64,000 nt of DNA. Origin: Prevotella sp. (GTDB lineage: Bacteria > Bacteroidota > Bacteroidia > Bacteroidales > Bacteroidaceae). The stretch lies in contig JAFPVC010000059.1 of NCBI GenBank assembly GCA_017413085.1, forward strand, positions 1-64,000, in the 5' to 3' direction. The translations under genes and the position numbers were made by a program. Numbering within the stretch: position 1 is the stretch's first letter; each line of letters begins with the position of its first letter. The notes under the pieces were generated by a model. The model had not been told where the DNA came from and ran no database searches. It worked only from the letters and a program-made list of their open reading frames with translations. Below are positions 13,047-63,408 of this stretch, one piece after another.

Positions 13047-13239
13047 AGGTGGGTTCTAAAAATTCCCACGAGTTAAATTAATCAATTATGTGAATATCAT
13101 TATGTCATCTTTTTGTTTTCTTTCAGTGCATACTGCCAGTCCTTTCGGTCACATAGCCCGCTATGCTCACTCAACGACTGACACTCTGCCCTCGAAACAA
13201 ATTCAAAAATCTGACAGTGGGAATTATTAGATCCCACCT
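13047..13239 (-). ncRNA. 193-nt structured leader element, copy A
   Basis: Terminal arms 13217-13239 and 13047-13069 pair over 23 bp with two conserved internal mismatches. An inner 8-bp stem (13176-13183 with 13134-13141) reads TGTCAGTC / GACTGGCA in the sense strand, and an apical CATAG/CTATG hairpin is identical in both copies. Copy B at 63216-63408 has the same length, and its inner stem differs by three compensatory pairs. The element lies between the -7 box at 13258-13265 and the ATG at 13039, ending 7 bases before the start, so it could mask initiation. A MITE-like mobile repeat is the alternative. Confidence 0.6.
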
Positions 13240-13257
13240 ATATATTTATTGCATGTG

Positions 13258-13265
13258 CAAAGATA
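13258..13265 (-). promoter_or_regulatory. -7 box (TATCTTTG) for the transporter-regulator gene
   Basis: TATCTTTG on the minus strand. A transcript starting about 7 bases on would carry the whole 193-nt element in its 5' leader. Confidence 0.55.
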
Positions 13266-13335
13266 CTAAAGAAAAACCATACCAACGAAAAAAAAAGGTT
13301 ACAATTCGGTTACGATTGCCCTTTTCACCCTATCA

Positions 13336-14151
13336 TTATTTCGGTTGCAGGCTTTGACGGTACTCGCTGGGAGTGAGTCCGAGGTGCTTGGTGCAGTATC
13401 GGCTGAAGTATGAGAGTGAGGCGAAGTTCATGCGGTAGGCTATCTGGGTTAGTGACAAGCTGTCGTCACTCAGGTAGTCTTTTATAATAGGTATGGTGTG
13501 GCGCACAATGAATGAGCTGACGCTGTGGCCTGTCATGCGGCGCACTGTGTCGGAGAGGTATTTCGGCGATACGTTGAGACGCTCGGCATAGTAGTTCACT
13601 TCGCGCTCGGTCTGACTGATGCCGGTGGCGAGGAGTGCCATGAGTTCCTTCACGATGTAGCCGGCGCGGTCGGTGTGGTTCTCGGTGGCATCGCGCATGG
13701 CGTGCACCTCGAAGATGTCGTACATCATGGTGAGGCACAGGCTGCCCATCATTTCGCGGTAGAACATCATGTGACGGTCTGCCATGCGACTGCGCAACTT
13801 GTGGAAATCTTCAAGGATGTGGGCTGCCTGTTCGTCAGTGAGCCTGATGACAGGGTTGTGGTTAAGCGATATGCTGCCCCCGATGCTGTAGTTGTTGGTA
13901 GGCAACTGGCTCTGCAGGAACTTGTAGTCGGCGGCAAACCACTCCACCTGCATGTCAGGAGGTGCGGCAAGGTTCTTCACCTTGTGGGGCTGAGGTATGA
14001 CCACGAGGTCGTTTTTGGTTATGTGGTAGCACTTCTCGTAGTACACGAAGCTGCCCTCGCCGGCGGTGCAGAGCATGTGCATGCAGGTGTGGGCCAGCGA
14101 CGGGGCGTTAAGGGCGTGAAAGTCAGTAGAGTATAGAAAGTCAATGGTCAT
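13336..14151 (-). CDS. AraC-family transcriptional regulator
   Basis: 271 residues: an N-terminal cupin-like sensing domain (GEGSFVYYEKCYHITKNDLV, followed by VIPQPHKV) and a C-terminal double HTH (YAERLNVSPKYLSDTVRRMT, then LSLTQIAYRMNFASLSYFSR). I chose ATG 14151 because the -7 box at 14181-14188 lies upstream of it; in-frame ATGs further left would lie upstream of the promoter. It diverges from the redox operon at 14312-21866 with promoters about 90 bases apart, so it is the likely regulator of that operon. Confidence 0.87.
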   Translation of the reverse strand: MTIDFLYSTDFHALNAPSLAHTCMHMLCTAGEGSFVYYEKCYHITKNDLVVIPQPHKVKNLAAPPDMQVEWFAADYKFLQSQLPTNNYSIGGSISLNHNPVIRLTDEQAAHILEDFHKLRSRMADRHMMFYREMMGSLCLTMMYDIFEVHAMRDATENHTDRAGYIVKELMALLATGISQTEREVNYYAERLNVSPKYLSDTVRRMTGHSVSSFIVRHTIPIIKDYLSDDSLSLTQIAYRMNFASLSYFSRYCTKHLGLTPSEYRQSLQPK

Positions 14152-14180
14152 GTTGGTTGTGATTGAAGGGGTTACGGATG

Positions 14181-14188
14181 CAAAGTTA
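14181..14188 (-). promoter_or_regulatory. -7 box (TAACTTTG) for the AraC gene
   Basis: TAACTTTG with TTTG 20 bases upstream on the minus strand; about 29 bases before the chosen ATG. Confidence 0.6.
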
Positions 14189-14276
14189 CACATTAATTTA
14201 TATATATACAAACGATTTACGCAAAAAGTTAAAATTGTAACGTATTTTGTGAAACAAGCATATCGGAAAAACATCG

Positions 14277-14284
14277 TAACTTTG
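14277..14284 (+). promoter_or_regulatory. -7 box (TAACTTTG) for the redox operon
   Basis: TAACTTTG 27 bases before the ATG of the 42-aa gene. Back-to-back with the AraC promoter, so an activator site is expected at 14190-14270. No exact repeat there is clear to me. Confidence 0.55.
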
Positions 14285-14311
14285 CAGCAGGAAAATTAAA
14301 AATTAAGAATT

Positions 14312-14440
14312 ATGGAATATCCAAAAGGTTACGTATTTGAATTGATGGAGAAAAGCGGTCCTACTGATGTGAGAGAGCCGTATTTCATGGAGGCAAAGGT
14401 GATAAAGATGCAGGATCCGAAGGAACAAAAGGAACTATAA
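14312..14440 (+). CDS. Small protein of 42 aa heading the redox operon
   Basis: Opens MEYPKGYVFELMEKSGPTD and closes DPKEQKEL; hydrophilic, no signal. ATG is 27 bases after the promoter box and the stop is 13 bases before the flavodoxin start. Its codon use looks like its neighbours. Either a real small protein or a leader reading frame; I do not recognise it. Confidence 0.5.
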   Translation: MEYPKGYVFELMEKSGPTDVREPYFMEAKVIKMQDPKEQKEL

Positions 14441-14453
14441 TTATTTATAAGGT

Positions 14454-15083
14454 ATGAAAACGTTGAACTATATTATTGTTTTGGCCTTATGCATGTTGGT
14501 GTCAACAGCCTGCAATGGCAGCAAGAAACAGGAAATAAATAACCAAGAAACAAAGGAAATCATGAACTCGGATAAAAAAGCAATTGTAGTGTTCTTCTCG
14601 CATGCGGGAGACAACTACGCGGTAGGTAACATTGAGGTAGGCAACACGAAGATAGTAGCCGACTATATCAGTGAACTGACAGGTGCAGAGCAGTTTGAGA
14701 TTGCTACGCACAAGTATGACGGCATGGCGTACAACCCACTCATCAAACTGGCGCAGGAAGAGGCAGAGAAAGGTGAACTGCCGGAGTATGAGGGCGACGT
14801 GGACCTTAGCCAGTATGACACGGTGTTCATCGGCGGTCCGGTATGGTGGGGCACCTATCCGCAGGTGATGTTCACCTTCTTCAAGAAGCATAGGGATGAC
14901 ATGAAGGGCAAGACCGTCATTCCGTTTACGACACATGAAGGCAGCGGACTGGCCAACTGCGTGGACGACGTAAAGAAGACTTTCCCTGGTGCAAACGTCA
15001 TGAAGGGATTCTCAATCTACGGACATGAGGTGCGCACGGAGAGAGCAAAGGTGGAAAAATGGCTGAAGGGAGTTGGAAATTAA
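14454..15083 (+). CDS. Flavodoxin-like lipoprotein
   Basis: 209 residues: a lipoprotein signal (LCMLVSTAC, Cys20) followed by a flavodoxin domain (VVFFSHAGDNYAVG; NTKIVADYIS; then FIGGPVWWGTYPQ, the W/Y flavin-stacking loop). It binds FMN and probably works in electron transfer in the cell envelope, which is unusual for flavodoxins that are normally cytoplasmic. Second gene of the AraC-linked operon. Confidence 0.85.
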   Translation: MKTLNYIIVLALCMLVSTACNGSKKQEINNQETKEIMNSDKKAIVVFFSHAGDNYAVGNIEVGNTKIVADYISELTGAEQFEIATHKYDGMAYNPLIKLAQEEAEKGELPEYEGDVDLSQYDTVFIGGPVWWGTYPQVMFTFFKKHRDDMKGKTVIPFTTHEGSGLANCVDDVKKTFPGANVMKGFSIYGHEVRTERAKVEKWLKGVGN

Positions 15084-15163
15084 GAATTAAGAATTAAGAA
15101 TAAAGAATTCTTGCTTTGGCAAGCGTCACTGCGTGCCGAGCGATGAATTATGAATTAAAAAAT

Positions 15164-16009
15164 ATGGAATACATTAAATTATATAACGGAGTAGAGATGC
15201 CAGTGCTGGGCTACGGAGTGTTTATGGTTAGTCCTGGTGAGTGTGAGCGATGCGTGACAGACGCACTGAACACAGGCTATAGGTTGATAGACACGGCGCA
15301 GGCTTACCAGAATGAGGAAGGCGTGGGTAACGCATGGCGCAAGAGCGGACTGAAGCGCGAGGATTTGTTTCTCGTGACGAAGGTGTGGATATCAAACAAC
15401 GGAGAGGAAAAGGCAGCTGAGAGCATAGACGAGAGTCTGCGCAAATTGCAGACTGAGTATATAGACCTTTTGCTGATACATCAGGCATACGGCGATGTCT
15501 TCGGCACATGGCGTGCCATGGAAAAGGCATATCGCGCCGGCAAGGTGAGAGCCATAGGCGTGAGCAACTTCCAGGCTGGTCGCTTCTTTGACTTCGCCCA
15601 TTATGTGGATGTGAAGCCAATGGTAAACCAGCTGCAATGTAACGTGATGATACAGCAGCATGGCATAGAGGCCATACACAGTGAGTTTGGCACGAAGATG
15701 ATGGCATGGGGCCCACTCGGCGGTCAGGGCGTTGACGGTATCGTGAAGAGCGAGGCGCTGGCAGCCATAGGAGCCAAGTATGGCAAGAGTGCCGCACAGG
15801 TGGCGTTGCGCTGGCTTACGCAGCGCGGCATTGTGGCAATACCAAAGTCTGTACACAAGGAACGCATGGAGCAGAACTATAAAGTATTAGACTTCTCACT
15901 GACAGATGACGACATGGCGCAGATAGCCAAGATGAACCAGCATGATAATGGTACCATCAACTTCGGTGATCCACAATTTGTGAAATACTTGATTGAGAAT
16001 TACGGATAA
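15164..16009 (+). CDS. Aldo/keto reductase
   Basis: 281 residues, TIM barrel with the AKR tetrad: Asp/Tyr in YRLIDTAQAYQNEEGVG, Lys in LVTKVW, His in LLIHQAYG; NADPH-binding text AIPKSVHKERMEQN near the C-terminus. Reduces aldehydes or ketones in the cytoplasm. I start at ATG 15164 (MEYIKLYNG); the upstream in-frame ATG at 15116 runs through A/T-rich repeat sequence (15084-15160) and is not credible. Confidence 0.9.
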   Translation: MEYIKLYNGVEMPVLGYGVFMVSPGECERCVTDALNTGYRLIDTAQAYQNEEGVGNAWRKSGLKREDLFLVTKVWISNNGEEKAAESIDESLRKLQTEYIDLLLIHQAYGDVFGTWRAMEKAYRAGKVRAIGVSNFQAGRFFDFAHYVDVKPMVNQLQCNVMIQQHGIEAIHSEFGTKMMAWGPLGGQGVDGIVKSEALAAIGAKYGKSAAQVALRWLTQRGIVAIPKSVHKERMEQNYKVLDFSLTDDDMAQIAKMNQHDNGTINFGDPQFVKYLIENYG

Positions 16010-16022
16010 AAAGAATACGACT

Positions 16023-17195
16023 ATGCAAGGAAACTTTTCTTATCACAACCCTACCAAACTTTATTTTGGTAAAGACTCATTGAATTTCCTTAAGGAAGAG
16101 TTAAAGAACTATGGCAACAAGGTGTTGCTGAACTATGGCAGCGGCAGCGTGAAGCGCAACGGCATATACGACCAGGTGGTGGCTATACTGCGCGAGGCCG
16201 GCAAGACAATAGTAGAGAATCCCGGTGTAATGACAAACCCTACGCTGGAGAAACTGAACGAGGGCGTGAAGATGGCACGTGAGAACGACGTTGACCTGAT
16301 ACTTGCCCTGGGTGGCGGCAGCGTATGCGATTACTCCAAAGCTGTGGCGGCATCGGTATTCTGCGATGGTGACTACTGGGATATGTTCTGGCTGAAGCAG
16401 CAAAATCCTGAAGAAGGACAGAAGCTGCTGCCTGTGGGCTGCATACTGACGATGGCTGGCACCGGTTCGGAGATGAATGCCGGTACGGTGATAACCGATG
16501 CAGAGCACACATTCAAAGTCGGCCATGTGTTTGATGACAGACTGATGCCCAAGTTCTCGATACTGAACCCTGAGTTTACCATGACTGTGCCTGAGAACCA
16601 GATGAAGGCAGGCATATATGACATCATGAACCATATCATGGAACAGTATTTCTCAGACTTCGACGACAACACCAGCGACTACCTCGCAGAGGGACTGATG
16701 CGCTCGGTTATCAACAGCAGCCGCGTAGCAGTGAAGAACCCAAAGGACTATGAGGCTCGCTCTAACATTATGTGGACTGCCACATGGGCGCTGAACACCC
16801 TCATAGGTATGGGTAAGCAGCAGGACTGGATGGTACACATGATAGGTCACAGCGTAGGTGCATGGACACACGCTCCTCATGGCTATGCCCTGGCGTCAGT
16901 GTCAATGGCATACTACCGTCGTGCCATGAAGAACGGACTGCCTAAGTTCGTACGCTTTGCCAAGAACGTATGGAACGTAAACGGCGACGACAGGACCGAC
17001 GAGCAGATAGCAGAGGCAGGACTGCAGGCTTTGAAGGAATGGATGACGGAGATTGGACTGCCGCTGACCATCAGCGAGGTGGGTGCCACTGCCGACATGA
17101 TACCGGGAATAACTGAGACTACTGTGGTTTATCCGGCAGGCTACCTTAACCTGTCAAAGGATGACGTGGCAGAGATACTGAAGGAAAGCCTGTAG
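16023..17195 (+). CDS. Iron-containing alcohol dehydrogenase (YqhD/BdhA-like)
   Basis: 390 residues. NAD(P)-binding LALGGGSVCDYSK, structural GTGSEMN, and metal ligands in YDIMNHIMEQYF and HMIGHSVGAWTHAPHGYAL. Family members reduce aldehydes (butanal, methylglyoxal, lipid peroxidation products) with NADPH. ATG 16023 is 13 bases after the AKR stop. Together with the AKR it points to reactive-carbonyl disposal. Confidence 0.9.
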   Translation: MQGNFSYHNPTKLYFGKDSLNFLKEELKNYGNKVLLNYGSGSVKRNGIYDQVVAILREAGKTIVENPGVMTNPTLEKLNEGVKMARENDVDLILALGGGSVCDYSKAVAASVFCDGDYWDMFWLKQQNPEEGQKLLPVGCILTMAGTGSEMNAGTVITDAEHTFKVGHVFDDRLMPKFSILNPEFTMTVPENQMKAGIYDIMNHIMEQYFSDFDDNTSDYLAEGLMRSVINSSRVAVKNPKDYEARSNIMWTATWALNTLIGMGKQQDWMVHMIGHSVGAWTHAPHGYALASVSMAYYRRAMKNGLPKFVRFAKNVWNVNGDDRTDEQIAEAGLQALKEWMTEIGLPLTISEVGATADMIPGITETTVVYPAGYLNLSKDDVAEILKESL

Positions 17196-17225
17196 ATAAT
17201 TCATCTATCAAAAGGAGGAGACACT

Positions 17226-17804
17226 ATGAGACAGATAATTATTCTTCTGGCAGCAATACTGCTTTGCAGTTGTTCTGCAGAAAGTGAGACTAAGGCACAG
17301 ACTACTATGAATAAGATATATGTTACCATAGGCGGGCAGACACAGAGCATGACACTTGCCGACACTCAGGCTGCACAGGAACTCGCGGCACGATTGCAAA
17401 ACGGATCACTCACCATATCGCTGAACACTAATGATGATTTCGAGATATGGGGACCGCTGGGCTTCTCGCTGACCACAAGCAACAGGCAGATGACCGCACA
17501 GGCAGGTGACGTGGTGCTGTATAGCGGCAGTAACATCTGTCTCTTTGCTGATGCAAACTCTTGGAGCTACACCCCATTGGGACATTTTGACAGCATTACG
17601 GGAAATGACCTGCGCACTTTCCTGAAGATAGGACAGAACAACATTCCCGTCACCCTGTCGCTGACATCAGGAGCAACAGCCGTCAGTAAGGTCACAGGTG
17701 CGGCGGCAGCAGACGATGGTGCCTGCTATTCTCTAAACGGACAACGAGTAGATAACCCAACGAAGGGAATGTATATAAAGAATGGTAAAAAAATAATATT
17801 ATGA
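17226..17804 (+). CDS. Cyclophilin-like fold lipoprotein
   Basis: 192 residues. Signal ending LLCSC; the mature part fits the cyclophilin-like domain often encoded beside flavodoxins (IYVTIGGQTQSMTLADTQAA, then LAARLQNG and GDVVLYSG). The C-terminus carries the Prevotella-type tail YSLNGQRVDNPTKGMYIKNG. Periplasmic or surface-exposed; isomerase activity is not implied. A GGAGGAG-type ribosome site is visible just before the start, rare for this genome. It overlaps the next gene by ATGA. Confidence 0.75.
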   Translation: MRQIIILLAAILLCSCSAESETKAQTTMNKIYVTIGGQTQSMTLADTQAAQELAARLQNGSLTISLNTNDDFEIWGPLGFSLTTSNRQMTAQAGDVVLYSGSNICLFADANSWSYTPLGHFDSITGNDLRTFLKIGQNNIPVTLSLTSGATAVSKVTGAAAADDGACYSLNGQRVDNPTKGMYIKNGKKIIL

Positions 17805-18337
17805 AAAAGGTTATAGTTATTTCCACAAGCCTGCGCCGTGGTTCAAACAGCGACATGCTCGCTGATAATTTTGCAGAGGGAGCCAAGGCTGCCGGAAACG
17901 AAGTGGAGAAGATTTCACTGGCTGGCAAGGAGATACAGTTCTGCAAAGGCTGCTTCGGTTGTCAGAAGTTAGGACGCTGTGTCATCAACGATGATGTGAA
18001 CGCTATAATGGCAAAGGTGCTGCAGGCTGATGTGGTATGCTGGGCAACTCCCATATACTATTATGAGATGAGTGGTCAGATGAAGACCCTCATAGACCGC
18101 ATGAATGCCATGTACTCTCAGGACTATATGTTCCGTGACGTATATCTGCTGACAACGGCTGCCGAAGACGAAGAACAGACTCCGAAGCGTGCAGAAATTG
18201 GTCTGACAGGCTGGATAGACTGCTATCCCAAGAGCCGCTTGGCAGGCACCCTTTTCTGTGGCGGCGTGAACGAAGCACGTGACATCGAAGGCAATGCAAA
18301 GTTGCAGGAAGCGTTTGAAATGGGAAAAACATTGTGA
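17801..18337 (+). CDS. NADPH-dependent FMN reductase / flavodoxin-fold protein
   Basis: 178 residues. SLRRGSNSDMLADNFAEGA at the N-terminus binds the FMN phosphate; a Cys-rich loop CKGCFGCQKLGRC and WATPIYYYEMSGQMK follow, as in iron-sulfur-flavoprotein-like reductases and quinone reductases. Cytoplasmic. Starts inside the previous stop codon (translational coupling). Confidence 0.85.
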   Translation: MKKVIVISTSLRRGSNSDMLADNFAEGAKAAGNEVEKISLAGKEIQFCKGCFGCQKLGRCVINDDVNAIMAKVLQADVVCWATPIYYYEMSGQMKTLIDRMNAMYSQDYMFRDVYLLTTAAEDEEQTPKRAEIGLTGWIDCYPKSRLAGTLFCGGVNEARDIEGNAKLQEAFEMGKTL

Positions 18338-18341
18338 TATT

Positions 18342-19481
18342 ATGAGGAATATACTTATAGCCGTGGCACTGTTGGGCGGAATACTAACAGGCTGCGATAC
18401 TAAAAAAGCGAAGGAGGAGAATATGAATACACTGACATTGACACAGGAGTGGGACAAGGTGTTCCCACTGAGCGAGAAGGTGAACCACAAGAAGGTGACG
18501 TTTGAGACACAGTACGGGCTGACGCTGGCGGCAGACCTCTATACGCCTGCGGCGAGTGAAAAGTTAAAAGTGAAAAGTGAAAAGTTGCCTGCCATTGCGG
18601 TCTCTGGTCCGTTTGGCGCTACTAAGGAGCAGTCGAGTGGTCTCTATGCCATGAAGATGGCAGAGCGCGGCTTCGTGGCACTTGCCTTCGACCCTTCATA
18701 TACAGGCGAGAGCAGCGGCGAACCACGTCGTACGGCATCACCCGACATCAACACCGAAGACTTTATGGCTGCCGTGGATTTCCTCTCTAAACAAGATAAT
18801 GTAGATGCAGAGAAGATAGGCATCATCGGTATCTGCGGTTGGGGCGGCATAGCACTGAACGCTGCCGCTGCCGACACCCGCATCAAGGCCACCGTAGCAT
18901 CTACCATGTATGACATGACACGAGTGAGTGGCAACGGTTACTTTGACAGCGAGGACAAGGAAGAGTCACGCCATGCTGCACGTGAGGCAATGGCAAAGCA
19001 ACGTCTGACAGATACGAAGGCGATGGCAGGCGGTGTTATAGACCCTCTGCCAGACGACGTGCCGCAGTTTGTGAAGGATTACTATGACTACTACAAGACA
19101 GAGCGCGGCTACCATAAGCGTTCCGGCAACTCTAACGACGGATGGCGCGTGATTGGTACGCAGGCGTATGCCAACAGCCGTTTCCTGTATTATATCAACG
19201 AGATACGCTCTGCCGTACTCGTGATGCACGGCGAAAAGGCCCACTCACGCTATTTCGGTGAGGCAGCATACAAATACATGGTGGAAGGCAAGGCTGAAGG
19301 CTATAACTTCATAGGCAAGCCTAACCCTAATCCGGATAACAAGCAGTTGCTAATAATACCTGGCGCTACGCATTGCGACCTCTATGACGGCGGCTACAAG
19401 GAACTGAAAGGCAAGGGTGAGGCCAAGAACCTTATACCATGGGACAAGCTGGCAGTTTTCTTCAAGGAGAACCTTAAGTAA
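18342..19481 (+). CDS. Alpha/beta-hydrolase lipoprotein
   Basis: 379 residues. Signal with lipobox LTGC; hydrolase with the nucleophile elbow GICGWGG (where Ser is usual, here Cys, as in dienelactone-hydrolase-like enzymes), an Asp/Glu in VLMHGEKAHS and His in GATHCDLY. I chose ATG 18342, 4 bases after the previous stop. The segment SEKLKVKSEKLP is encoded by a tandem AAAGTGAAAAGT-type repeat that looks like an in-frame insertion of an intergenic repeat. Confidence 0.8.
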   Translation: MRNILIAVALLGGILTGCDTKKAKEENMNTLTLTQEWDKVFPLSEKVNHKKVTFETQYGLTLAADLYTPAASEKLKVKSEKLPAIAVSGPFGATKEQSSGLYAMKMAERGFVALAFDPSYTGESSGEPRRTASPDINTEDFMAAVDFLSKQDNVDAEKIGIIGICGWGGIALNAAAADTRIKATVASTMYDMTRVSGNGYFDSEDKEESRHAAREAMAKQRLTDTKAMAGGVIDPLPDDVPQFVKDYYDYYKTERGYHKRSGNSNDGWRVIGTQAYANSRFLYYINEIRSAVLVMHGEKAHSRYFGEAAYKYMVEGKAEGYNFIGKPNPNPDNKQLLIIPGATHCDLYDGGYKELKGKGEAKNLIPWDKLAVFFKENLK

Positions 19482-19506
19482 AGACAATAATCAGAAACTA
19501 AGAAAC

Positions 19507-20865
19507 ATGATTTATAAATTCTGCATTATGTCAATAATGTTTGCCACCACAGCATTTGCGCAGCGTGTGACAGATGTGCACAGCCATATCATCACTCCTG
19601 ACTTTATAGAGTCTCTGGAGAAAGAGGGACGACTGATGGAGGAGGGCTTCCCTATACCAAGATATGACATTGGGAAACATCTGAACTGGATGGACGAGGC
19701 TGGCATAGGCACCTCCGTGCTGACGCTGGCTGCGCCGCAACCCTCTTCTGCCGATGTGGTAAGGAAGGCTAATGAGGCTGCGGCACGCATAAAGACGGAG
19801 CACCCCGGCAGGTTCCTGTTTTGCGCCGCCCTGCCCTTGCCTGATGTGGACGCTGCCATACGCGAGGCAAGGTATGCACTCGACACCTTGGGTGCCGACG
19901 GCATCAAGTTGGCTACCAACGTCAATGGGCAGTACCTTGGTGCACCAGAGTTAGACACACTCTTTGCCTTCCTCAATGAGCGCCGTGCAGTAATCATACT
20001 GCATCCTCATCGTCCTGAGCCAGTAAACCACGCTGTGATGGCGCAGACACCTTTGGCTATGCAGGAATACCTATCTGAGACCACCCGTGCCGTGACCAAC
20101 ATGATAAGCCGCAACGTGCTGGCACGCTATCCCGGTGTCAAGGTGGTGGTACCTCACTGTGGTGCATACCTGCCGCTGGCTATACCCCGCATGAAGTCAT
20201 TGGGACCTGTGATGCAGGCAAACAAGCTGGTGGGCGAGATTGACTGGGAGGCTAACCTCAGCGCCCTGTACTATGACCTTGCCGGCGCCCACTCGCCTGA
20301 GACTATCCGCATGATGCTCACCATCACCACGCCTGACCATCTGCTTTACGGCTCAGACTATCCATACGCCGCACCGCAGGTGCTTACGCAGAGTCTGGCA
20401 AGGATGAAGCAATACCTGCAGACTGAGACAGACCTCGCACCGTTCAAGGACATGATATTGTGGAAGAATGCCCAGTGGTTGTTTGGAAAGACAAAGGAGA
20501 AACCATCAGCGACAATGCCTGACGCGACATCTATGATAGTGCGCATTGCCGAGATAGAGGTGTGGCCGCAGTATCTCAATGAATATCTCAGTATAGCCAA
20601 CGAGGTGGACCGCCTCAGCATGGAACGCGAGCCGGGCGTCATCTGCCTGTTCCCTATGCAGAGCGCAGAGGACTCAACGCAGATACGCATACTTGAGATT
20701 TATGCATCAGAGGAGGCTTATCAAGAGCATCTGAAGACAGAGCACTTCCTGAAGTACAAGACCGGCACACTACACATGGTGAAGAGTCTGAAACTGCCAA
20801 CGATGAAACCGCTTGACACAGAGACGATGGACAAGATATTCAAGAAGATGAAGACATACAAATGA
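19507..20865 (+). CDS. Secreted amidohydrolase fused to an ABM monooxygenase-like domain
   Basis: 452 residues. Signal peptide to about residue 18 (ATTAFAQ). Amidohydrolase_2 barrel: metal motif DVHSHI, HPHRPEP, PHCGAYLPL and GSDYPYA. From about residue 340 a second domain (IVRIAEIEVWPQYLNEYLSI, then YASEEAYQEHLKTEHF) is typical of antibiotic-biosynthesis-monooxygenase (quinol oxidase) folds. The fusion suggests sequential processing of an aromatic or quinone-like compound in the periplasm. The stop overlaps the next start by ATGA. Confidence 0.85.
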   Translation: MIYKFCIMSIMFATTAFAQRVTDVHSHIITPDFIESLEKEGRLMEEGFPIPRYDIGKHLNWMDEAGIGTSVLTLAAPQPSSADVVRKANEAAARIKTEHPGRFLFCAALPLPDVDAAIREARYALDTLGADGIKLATNVNGQYLGAPELDTLFAFLNERRAVIILHPHRPEPVNHAVMAQTPLAMQEYLSETTRAVTNMISRNVLARYPGVKVVVPHCGAYLPLAIPRMKSLGPVMQANKLVGEIDWEANLSALYYDLAGAHSPETIRMMLTITTPDHLLYGSDYPYAAPQVLTQSLARMKQYLQTETDLAPFKDMILWKNAQWLFGKTKEKPSATMPDATSMIVRIAEIEVWPQYLNEYLSIANEVDRLSMEREPGVICLFPMQSAEDSTQIRILEIYASEEAYQEHLKTEHFLKYKTGTLHMVKSLKLPTMKPLDTETMDKIFKKMKTYK

Positions 20866-21866: not shown

Positions 21867-21876
21867 ATATTATATT

Positions 21877-21915
21877 CTCTTTGCCGTCCAAAAAAGAAAG
21901 AGGGATGGCAAAGAG
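21877..21915 (+). terminator. Terminator of the redox operon
   Basis: 13-bp stem CTCTTTGCCGTCC / GGATGGCAAAGAG (one mismatch) with an A/G-rich loop, 11 bases after the stop; T-tract weak. The rest to 22160 is A/T-rich without a gene. Confidence 0.6.
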
Positions 21916-22160
21916 TTTGCCAAACCGCAGAACGGTTTAGTTTATTCCCATATAAAATATCCATAACCTAAACTAAACTTTTTATTTCGGCGAATAATAT
22001 CGTCACAAGATAGAAGGGACAGATTACACCTCAACAGTATCCCCGAGGGACAGACATTATAAATGGCATTTCATGGCAATAAAAGAACCGTGTTTTACGT
22101 TATAATATAAACATCTGCAAAGAACTGAAAAAACATTAAATACCAACATTACATCAGATT

Positions 22161-53858: not shown

Positions 53859-53882
53859 CAATCCCCTATAATGATGGGATGA

Positions 53883-54362: not shown

Positions 54363-54390
54363 ATTTTTCTGTTCTTTATTTAGTAAATAG

Positions 54391-54490: not shown

Positions 54491-54493
54491 ACA

Positions 54494-56668: not shown

Positions 56669-56675
56669 TTTTCTC

Positions 56676-57476
56676 TTATCTTGAGAAGAATATCCGCTCT
56701 GCAGTCTCCGTGGTCACGCGCGACACCTCGTCAGCCGTCATGCCATAGGCCTCAGCCATGCGCTCTATTATATAAGGTATAAAGCTGCTTTCGTTTCTCT
56801 CGCCCCTGTGCGGCACGGGTGTCATGTACGGCGCATCGGTCTCAAGCACTATGCGGTTTAGCGGCACGACTGCGGGCAAGGTCTGCGGCAGGTTGCTCTT
56901 CTTAAATGTAAGGACACCTCCTATGCCAAGCGCGAAGCCATCAAACTGTAGCAGTTCCTCTGCCTCATGCTCATTGCCGGTGAAGCAGTGGAACACTCCT
57001 CCATGCAGCTTGCCTTCGTAGCGGCGCATTATCTTCACCATCTCATTTTGTGCCTTGCGGCAGTGTATCATCAGCGGCAGTCCTGTCTCCGCCGACCATG
57101 CTACCTGACGCTCGAAAGCATCCAGTTGTTCCTTCTCAAACTCGCGCGACCAATAGAAGTCGAGACCCACCTCGCCTATAGCGATAAGTCGTTTAGGAGG
57201 CAGGGCGCATGACAGGTTTGAGTCAATCTCTGTCCTTATCTTATCCAACACCTGCACGTAATCCTCCTTCACATCCTCGGGGTGCAGCCCAAGCATACCG
57301 TAACAGAAACCAGGATAGCGTTCACAAACACTGCGAACCGTGTCAATCGATTCAAGGTTGATGCCCGGCACAAGCAGTTTCAACGCACCACTGTCCTTGG
57401 CACGCTGTATCACCTGGCCAAGGTCGTCCTTAAATTCCTCACCGTCAATATGTGTATGGGTGTCGATATAATTCAT
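56676..57476 (-). CDS. tatD: TatD-family hydrolase
   Basis: 266 residues. Metal motifs YIDTHTHIDG, AIGEVGLDFYW, PLMIHCRKAQ, GVFHCFTG and LETDAPYMTPVPHRG. Family members are Mg-dependent 3'-5' DNases or deacylases. Stop to porE start gap is 7 bases, so it is co-transcribed. Confidence 0.9.
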   Translation of the reverse strand: MNYIDTHTHIDGEEFKDDLGQVIQRAKDSGALKLLVPGINLESIDTVRSVCERYPGFCYGMLGLHPEDVKEDYVQVLDKIRTEIDSNLSCALPPKRLIAIGEVGLDFYWSREFEKEQLDAFERQVAWSAETGLPLMIHCRKAQNEMVKIMRRYEGKLHGGVFHCFTGNEHEAEELLQFDGFALGIGGVLTFKKSNLPQTLPAVVPLNRIVLETDAPYMTPVPHRGERNESSFIPYIIERMAEAYGMTADEVSRVTTETAERIFFSR

Positions 57477-57587
57477 AATTCACAGTACACAATGCACAAT
57501 GCATAATGCATAATTCACAATGCACGTCTTTCAATTCTTCAATTCTTCAATTCTTCAATTCTTCAACCCTTCAATTCTTCAATTCTT
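57477..57587. repeat. Short tandem repeats upstream of tatD
   Basis: CACAATGCATAATGC-type words (57480-57525) then seven TTCAATTC units (57530-57585). Same word families as in the pepP and ZIP insertions and the hairpin at 50599. Confidence 0.75.
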
Positions 57588-58559
57588 CTACTTGTTCCTC
57601 TTCATCATTTTTGCGGCATAGTCGCGCAGTGGCTGCTTGCGGTCGTCGCTTACGCAGACCTTGTCAAGGGCGGCGAGGGCAATCTGATAGTATTCCTCCA
57701 TCTTTGCTTTCGCCATACGGTCTATGCCGAGTTTGTTGTATATAGCAGTCACCGCACCTACTTTCTCACTGCGGTCAGGGTTCTCTGCCGCAATCCATCG
57801 CTGCAGCTCCGCCTTGTCGTCGCCTTCGGCCTTGGCAAGGGCATTGATGAGCATGTATGTCTTCTTGTTGCACATGATGTCGCCGCCTATTTCCTTGCCG
57901 AACACCTTCGGGTCTCCATACACGTCGAGGAAGTCATCCTGCAGTTGGAAAGCCAGCCCCATGGCCTCGCCGAAGCGATACAGATTTTCCGTGTCCTCGT
58001 CTGTTGCCCCTGCCATGACGGCACCTATTTTCACGGCGCAGCCCAGCAGCACGCTGGTCTTCAGGCGAATCATCTCTATGTATTCCTCCTCCGTCACATC
58101 GTCACGTGTCTCAAAGTCCACGTCATACTGTTGTCCGTGGTTTATCTCAATGGCTGTCTGGGTGAACGTGCTCAACACCTTGCTGCAAACCTGCGGTTCA
58201 CTGTTCATCTCCTGCATCCACTTAAAAGCCAACACGAGCATGTTGTCGCCTGAGAGGATTGCCGTGTTCTCATTCCACTTGCGGTGTACCGTAGGCTTGC
58301 CCCTGCGCACATCGGCCTTGTCCATCACGTCGTCGTGCAGCAGTGTGAAGTTGTGGTATGTCTCCAGTGCCACGGCCTGCGGCAACACGTCTTCGCCGTT
58401 CTCCCGCCACAGTTCGTAAGCCATCATCATTAATTGTGGCCTGATGCGCTTGCCGCCGAGCGACAGCACATAGCGTATTGGTTCATACAGTCCTTTCGGC
58501 TCCACCTCAAGCGGCAAATTGTCTATGTATGCATTGATTTTATCCAGCATCTGGGTCAT
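57588..58559 (-). CDS. Polyprenyl (farnesyl/geranylgeranyl-type) diphosphate synthase
   Basis: 323 residues. First Asp-rich motif LLHDDVMDKADVRRGKP, second LQLQDDFLDVYGDPKVFGKE, isoprenoid synthase helices throughout. The residues upstream of DDxxD (LETYHNFT) suggest a short-to-medium chain length. Supplies isoprenoid chains for quinone or lipid carriers. Confidence 0.92.
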   Translation of the reverse strand: MTQMLDKINAYIDNLPLEVEPKGLYEPIRYVLSLGGKRIRPQLMMMAYELWRENGEDVLPQAVALETYHNFTLLHDDVMDKADVRRGKPTVHRKWNENTAILSGDNMLVLAFKWMQEMNSEPQVCSKVLSTFTQTAIEINHGQQYDVDFETRDDVTEEEYIEMIRLKTSVLLGCAVKIGAVMAGATDEDTENLYRFGEAMGLAFQLQDDFLDVYGDPKVFGKEIGGDIMCNKKTYMLINALAKAEGDDKAELQRWIAAENPDRSEKVGAVTAIYNKLGIDRMAKAKMEEYYQIALAALDKVCVSDDRKQPLRDYAAKMMKRNK

Positions 58560-58648
58560 TATGTCTTAATCTGATTTTTTGGGTCATAAATACTATACTT
58601 ATTATATATAACGCTGCTATGTACTATTTATTGCACGATTTTTTTACT

Positions 58649-58656
58649 TACTTTTG
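58649..58656 (+). promoter_or_regulatory. Possible orphan -7 box (TACTTTTG) in the 58560-58838 gap
   Basis: TACTTTTG is followed by an ACTTGCGATTTT/AAAATCACAAGT hairpin (about 58698-58726) and the hairpin at 58752-58783, with no coding frame. A small RNA is conceivable. Otherwise the gap is A/T-rich. Confidence 0.3.
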
Positions 58657-58751
58657 CAGTAGTAAGAATGATTGAAAATCCAAAGTAGTACTTGCGATTT
58701 TGATTGAAAATCACAAGTAAGCATACATGTAATGCTTATAGGAAAAATACA

Positions 58752-58783
58752 GAGCGCATCAAAAATTAACTCTTGATGCGCTC
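58752..58783 (-). terminator. Terminator of the lipoprotein gene
   Basis: 11-bp stem GAGCGCATCAA / TTGATGCGCTC, with TGTATTTTT following on the minus strand, 55 bases after the stop at 58839. Confidence 0.7.
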
Positions 58784-58838
58784 TTGTTCATTTACTCGTC
58801 GATGCATTGAAACATGCAGACAAAATATTTTACGTTAT

Positions 58839-59456
58839 CTATCTTCTCCCCCTGCTTCCTGTGGAATTAGTAGTCGTTCCTGTCTGGGAAGTACTGTTCT
58901 GCTGCGTCTGACTACCGATGTTGTTTCCCCAATTTGATGAGACGGGTGTTATACTACCATTGGAGGTGCCAGTTGTATTGTTGGTTGAATCCGAAACCCT
59001 CTTGTACTTCCATATGTGTTCTACGCCACCAGCATACATGCTGTCGGGATGGTCAAGATATAAGTACATTATGAGAGAACCTGAATTTAATGACATTATC
59101 CCAAATACATTCATATACTCAGATTCAGACGAACATACCACAAGATAACACCCCTCTCGTTTTTTTCCTACAAGGGAATTGTCAAACGATGTGGATTTAA
59201 ATGATGTGGGTTTAGTTGAAGATATATAATACTTACATGTCTCATCTATTTCTTTATTTATTCGGGGAAATGTCTCTCTGGTTTTTACTGTATTATTAGT
59301 AAATTCTATAGTATAATCGTGACTTCCCGTGTTTTGTAATTTCCATTTGGTGTTAACCAACTGGTCTGTGTTAATATTTTGAAGATCATGTATTTCTTGA
59401 GCGTTACACGCTATAAAAGCAACGCTCATGAGAATTATAAAAATATAGTTTTTCAT
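58839..59456 (-). CDS. Lipoprotein of unknown function (205 aa)
   Basis: Signal with lipobox VAFIAC (Cys17). The middle (WKLQNTGSHDYTIEFTNNTV, YKRVSD) is a lipocalin-like beta pattern. The last 60 residues are low complexity, Asn/Thr/Ser/Gln-rich, ending GSRGRR. Unrecognised. It starts 5 bases after the peptidase remnant, so the pair was an operon. Confidence 0.6.
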   Translation of the reverse strand: MKNYIFIILMSVAFIACNAQEIHDLQNINTDQLVNTKWKLQNTGSHDYTIEFTNNTVKTRETFPRINKEIDETCKYYISSTKPTSFKSTSFDNSLVGKKREGCYLVVCSSESEYMNVFGIMSLNSGSLIMYLYLDHPDSMYAGGVEHIWKYKRVSDSTNNTTGTSNGSITPVSSNWGNNIGSQTQQNSTSQTGTTTNSTGSRGRR

Positions 59457-59461
59457 TATCG

Positions 59462-59656
59462 TTAGTATTTTACATAAATATAATTAGGATACGCTTCAAA
59501 ATCTGCCTTACATCGCATTTCATATACTCCTCCTTTCGGAGTCGGATTTATACACTGATAGCCTTCTATATTATCATTAGAATCTGTAAAATATCCGACA
59601 ATGGCAACCATGTGCTTACCCGCATCATTATTAATTACAGCGGCAATAACAATTAT
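59462..59656 (-). pseudogene. C-terminal remnant of a possible cysteine peptidase
   Basis: Open from a TGA at 59657-59659: IIVIAAVINNDAGKHMVAIV, GYFTDSNDNIEGYQCINPTP, then YEMRCKADF and PNYIYVKY at the stop. The HMVAIVGY pattern resembles the His region of papain-like or C39/C70 peptidases, but the Cys region is missing. Codon-like composition argues for real coding ancestry. No start codon with a promoter. Confidence 0.4.
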
Positions 59657-59667
59657 TCACATTGTGC

Positions 59668-59717
59668 AAAAAAAAAACAGACTTTAACACTTTTATATAA
59701 AGTATTAATATCTGTTT
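59668..59717 (-). terminator. Rho-independent terminator of porQ
   Basis: On the minus strand AAACAGA...CTTT pairs with AAAG...TCTGTTT and is followed by a run of ten T. Confidence 0.7.
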
Positions 59718-59751
59718 GATAAATAACGTCAACAAACGTATTGTCCGCAGA

Positions 59752-60702
59752 CTACAACTCTACGGCGGCGTTAATCATCAGACTTGATGAGTTGACATGG
59801 TACTTGCCGTATGAAAGGTTGAGCTTGAAGCGGTCAAGCAACAGGCCGGCACCTATGGACAGGCCGGCACCGTGGGCACTCTTTGAACCATCGGTCAGGT
59901 TGGTGGTCTTCATTGAGTATGAACGGCGGGCATTGTAGCCACCGGCTATATAGAACTGCTCCGTGAGCATGACATCAACACCGATGCAGGCGTGGCGCAA
60001 CAGTGCATAGTCCCAGTGGTTGAGGTCGGCAAACGTGAGCGACACCCTAAGCGGTGAGTTCCGGAAATGGTATGACGCACCGATAAGCACATCGAGCGGC
60101 AGCGACTCAAAGTCGTCGTTGTAGGCAGAAAGCTGTCCGCCCAGGTTCTTCACGGCAAAGGATGCCGAGAAATCATTTGTGGGGTCGTAATAGTTCAGTC
60201 CGAGGTCGATTGCCGCCGCCGTACTGGTATAGCTGCCTATTTTCGAGTAGACAAACTTGGCTCCTATACCTCCCACGAGTTTCTTTGCCAGAGTATATGA
60301 AAGCAGACCTTCGAAGGCAATGTCTGACGAAGAGAACGTGCCAGACTGCACGTCGTTCTCGTCCACCTCGATTAATTTGCCGTAGTTTACGTAGTGTATG
60401 GCACCGCCGGCGGTCGCCTTGTCGTTAATGATGTCGGTGTAGTTTGCCGTATACATACCCACACCGTCCATGTAGTTCATATAGCCCACGGTGACAGTCC
60501 TGCCGCCAACCGACGACAGCAAAGCAGGATTTGACAATGCCAGCGTGGCATCGTCTTCTATGATAGATATGTTGTCGCCGCCGAGGGCTGCTGCGTGTGC
60601 ACTCTCAGGCAGGCGCAGGAAATTGAAAGCCGTCTGGCTCTCCTGCGCCCTCGCAGTGGTTGCCAGCGTGGCGAGCACGGAAAAAATGATAAGCTTATTC
60701 AT
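59752..60702 (-). CDS. porQ: PorQ-like T9SS outer-membrane protein
   Basis: 316 residues. Signal peptide to ARA/Q (about 19). PorQ hallmarks: FNFLRLPESAHAAALGGDNI, SIIEDDATLALSNPALLSS and repeated beta-strands with terminal hydrophobic residues, ending AAVEL. A 14-strand barrel of the FadL/PorV type. Works with PorU, PorV and PorZ in attaching cargo. No other por genes are adjacent; sprA and porE lie 12 and 3 kb away. Confidence 0.85.
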   Translation of the reverse strand: MNKLIIFSVLATLATTARAQESQTAFNFLRLPESAHAAALGGDNISIIEDDATLALSNPALLSSVGGRTVTVGYMNYMDGVGMYTANYTDIINDKATAGGAIHYVNYGKLIEVDENDVQSGTFSSSDIAFEGLLSYTLAKKLVGGIGAKFVYSKIGSYTSTAAAIDLGLNYYDPTNDFSASFAVKNLGGQLSAYNDDFESLPLDVLIGASYHFRNSPLRVSLTFADLNHWDYALLRHACIGVDVMLTEQFYIAGGYNARRSYSMKTTNLTDGSKSAHGAGLSIGAGLLLDRFKLNLSYGKYHVNSSSLMINAAVEL

Positions 60703-60754
60703 TATTAGAATAACGCTTGCACCGCTGGTTTATTGTGCGGAAAAAATCCATTCT

Positions 60755-61294
60755 TCAGAAGTAAAGCGTAACCTTCTGGTATCCTTTCTCGGGTTCAGTC
60801 ACCACGGGCGTAGGAAACTTGAATTTGCCTATCTCATCGAACACCCACAGCAGTTCTTCATTGCTGTAGACGTCAAACAGGCATTTCTTCGACACGATAT
60901 TGGTGCAATACACGTCGCCGTTGTCGTTAATCAGCACGTCGAACTCCATGATGAACTGATGCGGATAGTTGCTGTTGTCGTTGCGGGCGAGGCACTGCAG
61001 CGTGTGAATCTTAATGTCGTCGAAGATGCCATACACCTTTTCCTTAGCAGCCCACAACGGTTTCTTGGTTGCAATCTCAAACTCCGTCTTCGTCTGCTCT
61101 ATCCTGCCGGCCTTCTCAGATATGTCGCCTATGCTGTAGTAATAGAACTTATATCTGGGGTGGAAACGTTCCTTTATCGTGCGACCATTATATGTCTCCG
61201 TCCTGGTGTTTCCCTGTGCGCATATTGGTGAGGCAGGATATATTGACAGCAATAACAACAACAATGGTAATATGAAGATGTGTTTTTTCATCAT
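60755..61294 (-). CDS. Exported protein of unknown function (about 179 aa)
   Basis: Signal peptide FILPLLLLLLSIYPASPICA then NTRTETYNGRTIKERFHP. The C-terminal half resembles a TonB-C-like fold (FDVLINDNGDVYCTNIVSKK, LLWVFDEIGKFKFPTPVVTE), which is inference. I chose ATG 61294 because the -7 box is at 61325-61332. Confidence 0.65.
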   Translation of the reverse strand: MMKKHIFILPLLLLLLSIYPASPICAQGNTRTETYNGRTIKERFHPRYKFYYYSIGDISEKAGRIEQTKTEFEIATKKPLWAAKEKVYGIFDDIKIHTLQCLARNDNSNYPHQFIMEFDVLINDNGDVYCTNIVSKKCLFDVYSNEELLWVFDEIGKFKFPTPVVTEPEKGYQKVTLYF

Positions 61295-61324
61295 AACATT
61301 TAAAGTTTTAGTTAATCGTTTGTG

Positions 61325-61332
61325 CAAAGATA
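61325..61332 (-). promoter_or_regulatory. -7 box (TATCTTTG) for the exported protein
   Basis: TATCTTTG on the minus strand, about 31 bases before the ATG. Confidence 0.5.
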
Positions 61333-61543
61333 GAAAAAAAAAGCGTATGAGAATACTTTTTAATTGCTTTTAACATATTTTTAACATCCATGAATATCTG
61401 GAAACTATTTCCTGCCGAGATATTCAGCACGTACGTGCCGTCGGTGATGCCTGGGGTGATGCTGATGAAGTCGAGAACGGATTCGGCGCAGCCGTCACGC
61501 GACCGCATGGACTGATTACACAATGACACTTTTTTGCCCGTTT

Positions 61544-61797
61544 TGCTTACACAATGACTTTTTGAAACAGTCGTCCGCGCCGTGCAATCTGGAGATTTCA
61601 GCACAGCGAAAACACAGTTTAAACATGAAAAAAACGAAAAACCGCAGCAAGTTTTGTGGACTTATTGCGGTTTTTCGTTGTAATCAGTATGCTTTTACAT
61701 CGCAATCAGGCCCCAATTACACTGTAATTAGGTTGCGATTACATGGTAATTAGGCCTCGATTACAGTGTAATTAGGCCCCAATTACAGTGCCTAAAA
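61544..61797. repeat. Diverged dispersed repeat with GATTAC/AATTAGG array
   Basis: Opens TTTTGCTTACAC like the 384-bp repeats. It contains a 12-bp perfect hairpin (CGAAAAACCGCA 61635-61646 with 61666-61677), then about eight units of GTAATTAGGCCCCAATTACA type to 61797. A frame at 61400-61510 (minus) has protein-like text (ISITPGITDGTYVLNIS) but no credible gene. 61798-61989 holds nothing I can name. Confidence 0.6.
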
Positions 61798-61989
61798 AAC
61801 GTCCTAAAACCTAACTACTTATCAAACAACACGTTGACAAACCCCTCCATATTTCCGCTGTACGAAACCGTGGGAAAGTTTTTTTCAAATACGCGAGTAT
61901 TCAGGCGGTTGAGAAAATCACAGTGTCACGATAACTGCCGTTTCTGTGACACTGTGATATGTGTGGCACTTATGTCCTCGGTTTTGGCA

Positions 61990-62053
61990 TTACCACCATC
62001 TCACCTTTCCGTTTTCGAAGTTGAAGATGCGCTCCTCGCGGCCGCCGGTGTAA
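61990..62053 (-). pseudogene. Very short C-terminal gene remnant
   Basis: The minus strand reads YTGGREERIFNFENGKVRWW then stop, protein-like text with a typical C-terminal aromatic end. Only 20 codons, cut at about 62053 next to the permease remnant. Weak on its own. Confidence 0.3.
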
Positions 62054-62060
62054 GGAGAAG

Positions 62061-62186
62061 ATGGAGTATATCGGCATCGGCGCACTTATCGGCATACGCA
62101 TCGTAAAGCTTTTCCCCGAAAAAGCCTTTCGCAGGTTCATACAGATTGTCACCATACTGTCTGTCGCCATGATGCTGGTACAGTAG
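62061..62186 (+). pseudogene. TauE/SafE permease C-terminal remnant
   Basis: Reads MEYIGIGALIGIRIVKLFPE then KAFRRFIQIVTILSVAMMLV and stop: the last helix pair of TauE/SafE anion exporters (GALIG-R-KLFPEKAFRRFI-I pattern). The other about 200 residues are gone. The initial ATG may be fortuitous. Confidence 0.5.
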
Positions 62187-62198
62187 CACAAAAACCTA

Positions 62199-63065
62199 TC
62201 ACACCTGTGAGTATTTCTCTCTATATTGCAATGGTGACACCTTGGTATGCCGCTTGAATACATTATTGAAATATGCCATGTCATCATAACCCAAAGACAG
62301 AGCAATCTGCTTGACAGACAATGAAGTAGTAACCAATAGCAATTCCGCACGCTCTATCTTCTTTGCCGTAACATACGCATTAGGGGTATGCGACACTTCC
62401 CTCTTAAACATCCTGATAAAATGGTCTTTCGACATACAAGCCACCTTTGCAAGCTCATCCATATTGACACGCCTGCCTATGTTTTCCCTTATATATGTCA
62501 GCGACCGCTCTATACGCTCATCTTTTACACGCTTCTCCGCAGTGGCATGGCGCAGGAAACGAGAGAGCAGAAGAAGGATAATGCCTGTTGACTCCACCTT
62601 GTCGCAAACAGAGCGTTGCTGATTGTTCTGTATGTTACTGATTAAAGTAGTGCGGTTATCATAGCTCTCCGGGTCCGACTGGTTCAGTTTCATTCCCGGA
62701 TTGACCTCACACAACCGCTTCATAAGATTCTGGTCATCATTAGCAGCTTCCACCTCCACGGGAAACTTCCAGTCATCCCAAAAGCTGCCACCATAAGAGG
62801 GGTCTTCATATAAATGCAGGTAATAGTGAGAGAAACTGCCTTTACATATATTACTATGCATAGTATATGGCGGAACAAGATACAGATGATGCGGCAGGAG
62901 GGACACTATGCCGTCAGGCAGCTCGACCTGAGCGTCACCGTCCACCACGTAATAGAGCCTGGCAAACGGACTACGCACATTCCTCCAATTCCAGTCGCCG
63001 CAATGTCTTGCGAACCCCACATTGAGCATCAGCAGGGGGAAATTATATAAGGGGCCTTCATTCAT
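62199..63065 (-). CDS. AraC-family transcriptional regulator
   Basis: 288 residues: N-terminal cupin-type ligand domain (YYVVDGDAQVELPDGIVSLL, PHHLYLVPPYTMHS) and C-terminal double HTH (DELAKVACMSKDHFIRMFKR; VKQIALSLGYDDMAYFNNVF). Divergent from the glycosidase-like gene at 63440, which it probably controls in response to a sugar. The ATG lies 8 bases after the -7 box, so the mRNA may be leaderless. Confidence 0.87.
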   Translation of the reverse strand: MNEGPLYNFPLLMLNVGFARHCGDWNWRNVRSPFARLYYVVDGDAQVELPDGIVSLLPHHLYLVPPYTMHSNICKGSFSHYYLHLYEDPSYGGSFWDDWKFPVEVEAANDDQNLMKRLCEVNPGMKLNQSDPESYDNRTTLISNIQNNQQRSVCDKVESTGIILLLLSRFLRHATAEKRVKDERIERSLTYIRENIGRRVNMDELAKVACMSKDHFIRMFKREVSHTPNAYVTAKKIERAELLLVTTSLSVKQIALSLGYDDMAYFNNVFKRHTKVSPLQYREKYSQV

Positions 63066-63073
63066 AACAGGTG

Positions 63074-63081
63074 CAAAGATA
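63074..63081 (-). promoter_or_regulatory. -7 box (TATCTTTG) for the AraC gene
   Basis: TATCTTTG on the minus strand; only 8 bases to the ATG at 63065. Confidence 0.5.
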
Positions 63082-63157
63082 CTACTTTATTTTTATATAT
63101 ATCGTTTTTTTACAATAAAATATCTTTATTTTCCACTATTTATATCGATTTTATCAT

Positions 63158-63165
63158 TACCTTTG
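63158..63165 (+). promoter_or_regulatory. -7 box (TACCTTTG) for the glycosidase-like gene
   Basis: TACCTTTG is followed by a seven-codon frame MKKKFLI (63194-63217) that ends at the edge of the 193-nt element. It may be a leader peptide or the stump of an interrupted signal peptide. Confidence 0.5.
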
Positions 63166-63215
63166 CACCTGACACAAGAATATGCAATTATAATGAAGAA
63201 AAAATTCCTAATATA

Positions 63216-63408
63216 AGGTGGGGTCTAATAATTCCCACTGTCAGATTTTTGAATTTATTTTGAGGGCAAAATGTTAGCTGATAAGGAAGCATAGCGGGCT
63301 ATGTGACCGCAGAAGCTAGCAGTTTGCACCAAAAGAAAACAAAAATATGACATAATGATATTCATATAATTGACTAATTTAACTCGTGGGAATTTTTAGA
63401 ACCCACCA
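63216..63408 (+). ncRNA. 193-nt structured leader element, copy B
   Basis: Terminal arms 63216-63238 and 63386-63408 pair as in copy A with the same T-T mismatch. Inner stem TGTTAGCT (63272-63279) with AGCTAGCA (63314-63321): relative to copy A three base pairs changed on both sides and the G-U wobble is kept. Apical hairpin CATAG-CGGG-CTATG at 63290-63303 is identical. It lies between the -7 box and the start of the gene at 63440, same sense orientation as copy A. Confidence 0.6.

Follow-up and report, generated by a model that had tools for sequence, protein, structure and literature searches.

Repeats in the 5' leaders of two Prevotella genes are copies of a miniature inverted-repeat transposable element whose conserved core is kept foldable on one strand

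Background

Miniature inverted-repeat transposable elements (MITEs) are usually regarded as gutted transposons with an irrelevant interior. Correia/NEMIS, RUP and ERIC elements are palindromic and intergenic, have terminal repeats, duplicate their target and can be read into mRNA, and in all this the elements discussed below are like them. The IS5-related MITEs of Porphyromonas gingivalis (BrickBuilt, MITE239 and MITE464) are also alike: in the accessible part of the report that describes them (PMC4596501), they are short, gene-free elements of the Bacteroidales with predicted stem-loops, and they have terminal inverted repeats (TIRs) like those of the IS5 family (GAGACTGTTGCA in ISPg4 and MITE464). 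The present analysis concerns two repeats, copies A and B, in 64,000 nt of DNA from Prevotella sp. (assembly GCA_017413085.1, contig JAFPVC010000059.1, positions 1 to 64,000; this whole stretch is called the window). An original prediction, made from the letters of the window, took them for an undescribed leader RNA. The repeats are instead copies of a MITE, that is, of a non-autonomous DNA transposon. Its interior holds a covarying cassette that is shared with other elements and conserved on one strand, and that probably works as a folded RNA for the element and not for the neighbouring genes.

Evidence for mobility

Copies A and B are real, lie where they had been predicted and are equal in length, with 88% identity. 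The predicted 193 nt includes one base at each end that is flank or target duplication, and the element proper measures 191 nt; its 22-nt ends are imperfect inverted repeats. Each end can also fold on itself (GTGGG..CCCAC), as had been noticed for the terminal arms. Neither copy contains a transposase gene, and the longest copy free of open reading frames (ORFs) in the genome is about 281 nt, so that the elements are short and gene-free, as MITEs are. The end pattern, allowing up to three mismatches, occurs five times in the window, where 0.01 occurrences would be expected, and a reversed control pattern is found neither in the genome itself nor in 14 congeners.

Both copies are flanked by 4-bp direct duplications, which the original prediction had not seen, along with two further full copies and one 75-nt copy elsewhere in the genome and a solo palindrome at 1621-1643. 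These duplications were examined in 71 distinct pairs of GGTGGG ends, which were inverted, lay 55-420 nt apart, had at most three mismatches and were deduplicated by 12 + 12 flanking bases. The 4-bp flanks are identical in 44 of the 71 elements and differ by one base in 16, by two in eight and by three in three; when the comparison is shifted four bases further out, none of the 71 is identical. The 44 targets are mostly of the form TNNA (TTTA 11, TTAA 10, TAAA 7, TATA 4). Some of the 27 imperfect duplications are accounted for by an assembly artefact, because many contigs of UBA3849 (L069, L072, L074, L103, L125, L131 and others) open with one and the same stretch of 73 nt ahead of the element and thus have repeat-induced ends. 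In addition, four congeners (L357-L360) carry relatives of the gene behind copy A, a sodium/phosphate (Na/Pi) cotransporter gene, at 78-84% DNA identity, and there the gene is preceded by a related promoter with TATCTTTG or TAACTTTG. No MITE end lies within 300 nt before the gene in these four; their leaders between the promoter box and the ATG are too diverged to display the exact target.

As the rival of a leader RNA, the original prediction had named an RNA-shaped mobile repeat, either a MITE or a palindrome-associated transposable element (PATE). The 44 duplications bear out the MITE. A PATE or IS200-IS605-type element, which has a Y1 transposase and makes no target duplication, was considered and rejected since duplications are present, no search for a Y1 enzyme having been made.

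Orientation to genes

The placement of the copies is what lends a leader RNA its appeal. As predicted, A and B lie in sense between a start codon and a TAnnTTTG box, which we take to be the Bacteroidetes -7 consensus, and the longer copies on C56 and C32 of this genome are likewise in sense ahead of a start codon. Orientation was counted for each gene that points its 5' end at an element no more than 500 nt away, genes being taken simply as the longest ORFs. The subfamily to which the window copies belong (25 elements with both GGTGGG ends) has 16 sense and 5 antisense placements (p = 0.027, uncorrected), a bias that is weakened because many contigs of this subfamily end in the repeat and leave only one side visible, and that may be due to chance, to the loss of harmful insertions through selection or to later adoption by the host. 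The other 38 GGTGGG elements with both ends give 20 sense and 19 antisense, and over 203 distinct core copies the 5' leaders divide into 89 sense and 78 antisense (among them 34/24 for GGTGGG ends, 18/20 for RCTGTTTAA ends and 28/26 for unclassified ones). Near-even orientation together with target-site duplications is the outcome that had been set beforehand as speaking against a leader RNA. The genes behind the copies are, moreover, mutually unrelated. Given the duplications, the 89 to 78 orientation and the four congeners in which the Na/Pi gene follows a related promoter without any element, the repeats are not a leader RNA evolved for these genes, and it is most improbable that a cis-acting RNA in them controls the genes downstream.

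A covarying core

What survives of the earlier reading is the covariation, which is real, wide and one-stranded and points to a constraint at the RNA level inside a mobile element. Between A and B, the 8-bp stem is compensated as described, with three pairs that differ on both sides and a U.G that is retained. Copy A folds with -73.0 kcal/mol (z -7.9) and copy B with -71.5 kcal/mol (z -8.6), and in neither case is any of 200 dinucleotide shuffles as good.

The consensus of the core is GAGGGAGcNNNG-CRRG-CN'N'N'gTGACCGA, with covarying arms. Its stems include CATAG/CTATG, GATAG/CTATC, TGATG/CATCA, CGATG/CATCG, TATAG/CTATA, CGTAG/CTACG and CAATG/CATTG, and its loops are CGGG, CGAG, CAAG and CAGG. 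In an alignment of 32 sequences, 85.5% of 512 cells are paired, compared with 29-43% when the partners are slid, and 13 of the 16 pairs vary on both sides; the pair adjoining the core stem is G-U in 27 sequences, G-C in three and A-U in two, and is never unpaired. These sequences were picked by hand among core matches or well-folding variants without demanding pairing (a lax pattern search, whose 198 matches are mostly chance, served only for spotting variants), whereas the pairing in the 203 core copies is there by construction, because their selection demanded a full 6-bp core stem. GAGGGAG opposite UGACCGA could be read as a tandem G.A, GG:CC, a second tandem G.A and a G.U. About 25-45 nt out from the core, UUUUUGAG stands opposite GCCAAAAAG; in both places the non-canonical pairs are our reading.

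An exact search of a genome collection with the middle of the element, AGCATAGCGGGCTATGTGACCG, found at least 120 stretches, and among the matches listed the carriers are Prevotella, Prevotellamassilia, Muribaculaceae, Paludibacteraceae, Rikenellaceae and other Bacteroidales; the ends that flank the core are of several types. Cultured carriers with an exact core include Prevotellamassilia timonensis and Muribaculaceae Isolate-036. Copy B is matched in 31 of 299 congeners, in some of them in the core only. Covariance model R1, built from the 32 sequences, has matches in 16 of 393 Bacteroidales genomes, the source genome among them, and six of the 16 hold 12 or more copies; over the phylum (395 genomes) it matches only the source genome and G556, which belongs to the same family. 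The core is thus patchy and, at this search depth, seen only in Bacteroidales. Plasmid and phage records gave no match, and none of three patterns occurred exactly in viral contigs. The Rfam check that had been proposed found no family at the gathering score in the window, and over nine loci gave four chance-level matches, none of them on the core.

Two-sided changes can also arise without selection through quasi-palindrome correction, a mutational process. An old MITE lineage with a functionless interior, in which template switching keeps the arms complementary and recent common descent keeps the core, would accordingly explain the pairing, and the TIRs of the different end classes do look related. 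Such a process predicts perfect pairs, however, and not strand-specific purine-purine and G.U mismatches; the core, moreover, stays fixed while arms and ends average less than 40% identity, and positions around it are conserved without standard pairing. We consider this explanation quite improbable.

Constraint on one strand

Strand tests were made on 43 representatives of less than 70% identity, which share ancestry, so that the p values are indicative. The mean minimum free energy is -48.6 kcal/mol for the sense strand and -35.3 kcal/mol for the other, and the sense strand is lower in 42 of the 43; with the core and 12 nt on each side removed, it is still lower in 29 of 43 (p = 1e-4). Although dinucleotide shuffles keep -6.5 of the energy gap of -13.3, 41 of the 43 exceed their shuffles. 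Mismatches in the helices are equally lopsided: G.A outnumbers U.C by 134 to 11, G.U outnumbers A.C by 61 to 34 (p = 0.007; 71 to 40 in a cruder first count over 54 representatives), and there are 18 G.G to one C.C and 24 A.A to 13 U.U. Both marks of a structured RNA, covariation beyond that of slid controls and a single functional strand, are therefore present.

The same asymmetry would be expected if the conserved hairpin acted as DNA, its single or cruciform strand being bound by a transposase-associated or host protein with no RNA involved. In favour of this, the element is palindromic and its movement is that of DNA; strand asymmetry does not separate RNA from single-stranded DNA; and DNA hairpins, too, accommodate G.T and tandem G.A pairs well. 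A cruciform, however, exposes both strands and should not favour one of them so strongly; we know of no single-stranded intermediate in IS5-type cut-and-paste; and no fixed strand of replication or transfer is evident, because copies occur in either orientation. A hairpin that works as DNA is therefore rather unlikely.

End classes and transposases

The core occurs between ends of different classes, which differ also in their target duplications. Of 69 core elements with IS5-like ends, 54 show a 3-bp duplication (TAA 29, TTA 24, TCA 1), with 3 of 69 in the control, and core elements with AGTAA ends have a 2-bp TA duplication in 8 of 13, with 1 of 13 in the control. When the best pair from each pair of TIR classes is compared, the inner 60 nt are 72-92% identical and the outer parts about 30%. 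The TIRs themselves look alike (AGTAACTGTTCAAAATT, GAAACTGTTTAAATTTA and GGTGGGTTCTATTAATT).

In G556 there is an 899-bp element with a 257-aa IS5-family transposase (NF033580, 2e-68; PF13340, PF01609), whose end, GAAACTGTTTTGAATT, is almost equal to the ends of the MITEs in that genome. A second element, of 893 bp and with an IS4/5-type transposase, abuts a MITE at locus L155. The cassette is not an insertion-sequence remnant in these cases, because the insertion sequence holds no core and has only an end of about 17 nt in common with the MITEs. Used as a query, the G556 transposase matches 2 of 299 congeners, the source genome not among them. In the 3-bp class, ends and duplication agree with those of an IS5-family element; the ends of the 4-bp GGTGGG class of the window bear only a loose resemblance to IS5-family ends. 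No transposase with GGTGGG ends was found among inverted pairs 0.6-2.6 kb apart in all loci collected; the pairs about 1 kb apart that did appear are two MITEs flanking other reading frames, those of L351, L079, L329, L130 and L066 having been read by eye only.

It is conceivable, if doubtful, that the core is a transposase-independent passenger, a structured RNA module that MITEs of three or more duplication classes have carried and passed to one another throughout the Bacteroidales and that benefits its carriers through an order-wide host factor; in that case DNA transposons would have something like an RNA satellite. Any claim that the systems are independent is limited, because the class ends resemble each other and IS5-family elements have reported duplications of 2-9 bp in the part of the source at hand (PMC4596501), and so a single family could be the driver.

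Proposed mechanism

In the mechanism that we consider probable, with the cassette working as an RNA for the element, a DDE-type transposase would cut in trans at the TIRs and paste the element into a 4-bp, AT-rich TNNA site. Between the ends lie two long pairing arms and a conserved apical core, GAGGGAG-stem-CRRG-stem-UGACCGA, with covarying stems. The cassette would be transcribed from host promoters or from its own, and its RNA might serve the element, for instance through binding to a host factor or by lessening the harm of insertions into transcribed DNA. We infer a folded RNA because the constraint acts on one strand, and service to the element rather than to its neighbours because orientation to genes is near even. 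The TAnnTTTG box occurs in 81 elements 23 and 21 times on the two strands, compared with about nine in mononucleotide shuffles, the counted stretch including host flank.

Several points weigh against this reading. The step to a working RNA is taken from strand asymmetry; that one strand stays able to fold fits RNA, but a hairpin of single-stranded DNA would produce the same pattern. Composition accounts for roughly half of the difference in folding energy, as the shuffles retain it, and the clear excess of G.U over A.C is limited to 12-30 nt from the core (33 to 11, as against 3 to 7 adjoining it and a non-significant 25 to 16 further out). In many copies the sense strand is not the one read from the neighbouring gene. 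As for the ends, the TA class is small (n = 13), all end classes may be driven by subgroups of one IS5 transposase family, and a pattern search found no full-length element with GGTGGG ends in the source genome or among the places listed in 14 congeners, a listing that leaves out G085 and G174.

Should the core prove to be an RNA, a selected non-coding RNA would be travelling with bacterial DNA transposons. Here the interior of a MITE is its most conserved part, its fold is kept on one strand, and it is common to elements with different ends. The case also calls for caution, since two covarying copies before genes can mimic a riboswitch and yet be a mobile element; anyone who searches Bacteroidales for leader RNAs will meet such copies and should mask them.

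Features of the window and further copies

The features of the window are collected in Table 1.

Table 1. Coordinates of the MITE copies and related features in the window
Feature	Position	Strand	Basis or remark
MITE copy A	13048..13238	-	191 nt, GGTGGG...CCCACC; 5' leader of Na/Pi cotransporter-PhoU-Trans_reg_C gene
MITE copy B	63217..63407	+	191 nt, GGTGGG...CCCACC; 5' leader of another gene
Target duplication TATA, upstream side of A	13239..13242		flank reading
Target duplication TATA, downstream side of A	13044..13047		flank reading
Target duplication ATAA, left of B	63213..63216		flank reading
Target duplication ATAA, right of B	63408..63411		flank reading
Left TIR of A, also a GTGGG..CCCAC hairpin	13217..13238	-	end pattern
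Right TIR of A	13048..13069	+	end pattern
Left TIR of B	63217..63238	+	end pattern
Right TIR of B	63386..63407	-	end pattern
Conserved core GAGCATAGCGGGCTATGTGACC of A	13147..13168	-	core pattern; model R1
Conserved core of B, one mismatch	63287..63308	+	core pattern
75-nt core and arms of A	13119..13193	-	covariance model R1 match, E 2.2e-13
75-nt core and arms of B	63262..63336	+	covariance model R1 match, E 2.3e-14
8-bp arm TGTCAGTC / GACTGGCA of A and everything between	13134..13183	-	arms 13183-13176 / 13141-13134
8-bp arm TGTTAGCT / AGCTAGCA of B and everything between	63272..63321	+	arms 63272-63279 / 63314-63321
Solo 23-nt end-like palindrome	1621..1643	+	3 mismatches to TIR pattern; probably decayed relic

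Copy A ends 8 nt before the ATG of its gene (11081-13039, minus strand), which was rightly predicted to be a phosphate transporter-regulator: it encodes a Na/Pi cotransporter and PhoU fused to a C-terminal OmpR/PhoB-type DNA-binding domain (Trans_reg_C). Its promoter (13298-13315, minus strand) has a direct repeat with an 11-nt period, TCGTAAC-CGAA-TTGTAAC, which is retained in L357-L360 as TTGTAACCGAATTGTAA(C/T) or close to it. This repeat is PHO-box-like, and the gene perhaps encodes a self-regulated, membrane one-component phosphate regulator. The gene behind copy B has no Pfam match in the 187 aa visible in the window.

The source genome, 79% complete at 2.83 Mb and 62 contigs, contains two further full copies, one of 248 nt on C56 and one of 281 nt on C32, each enlarged by a hairpin of about 60 nt in mid-element. 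The 75-nt short form lies on C28, and C32 also holds a fragment. In these two longer copies (L004 and L005), and also in L066, a GC-rich hairpin (CCCCCGCGAAACGGGGGAG...) is inserted directly before the core, and a similar short repeat, GGTTTAGCTCGgCGGCCGAAGGGaAAGcCAAA, is present in L005 and L024. The end pattern has 19 places in this genome in all, and about ten of those outside the window are single end-like palindromes of 22-23 nt, which we take to be relics; they may be leftovers of deletion between the repeated CCCAC motifs of both ends. Single palindromes (window 1621-1643; L020, L022-L030) are often near start or stop codons, and two of those read by eye have matching 4-bp flanks. Composite elements, with two nearby cores in opposite orientation and different arms, occur at L101, L152 and L178.

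Comparison with known systems

The literature searched, which included the accessible parts of PMC2267715 and PMC5771137 and left subscription papers outside its scope, has no description of this core or MITE family, and the exact core string does not occur in the papers searched. REP/BIME and RAYT systems resemble the present elements in being intergenic palindromes in many copies, as far as the available part of PMC3733652 describes them, but the target duplications and long inverted ends of the window MITEs point to a DDE enzyme; no GTAG/CGTC tag was noticed at the foot of the hairpins, although no search was aimed at it. BrickBuilt differs in having tandem repeats inside it, and the window copies have ends, GGTGGGTTCTA, and a 4-bp duplication unlike those given for the P. 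gingivalis MITEs in the portion of PMC4596501 consulted.

Among short palindromic MITEs, we know of none with one covarying core that is common to different ends and to different duplication lengths. The candidate structured RNAs of Bacteroidetes (Bacteroidales-1 and others), in the accessible part of PMC2864571, are likewise conserved, covarying and confined to a bacterial order. The core described here differs from them in that it has no Rfam match and in that its RNA-like part lies inside a transposable element.

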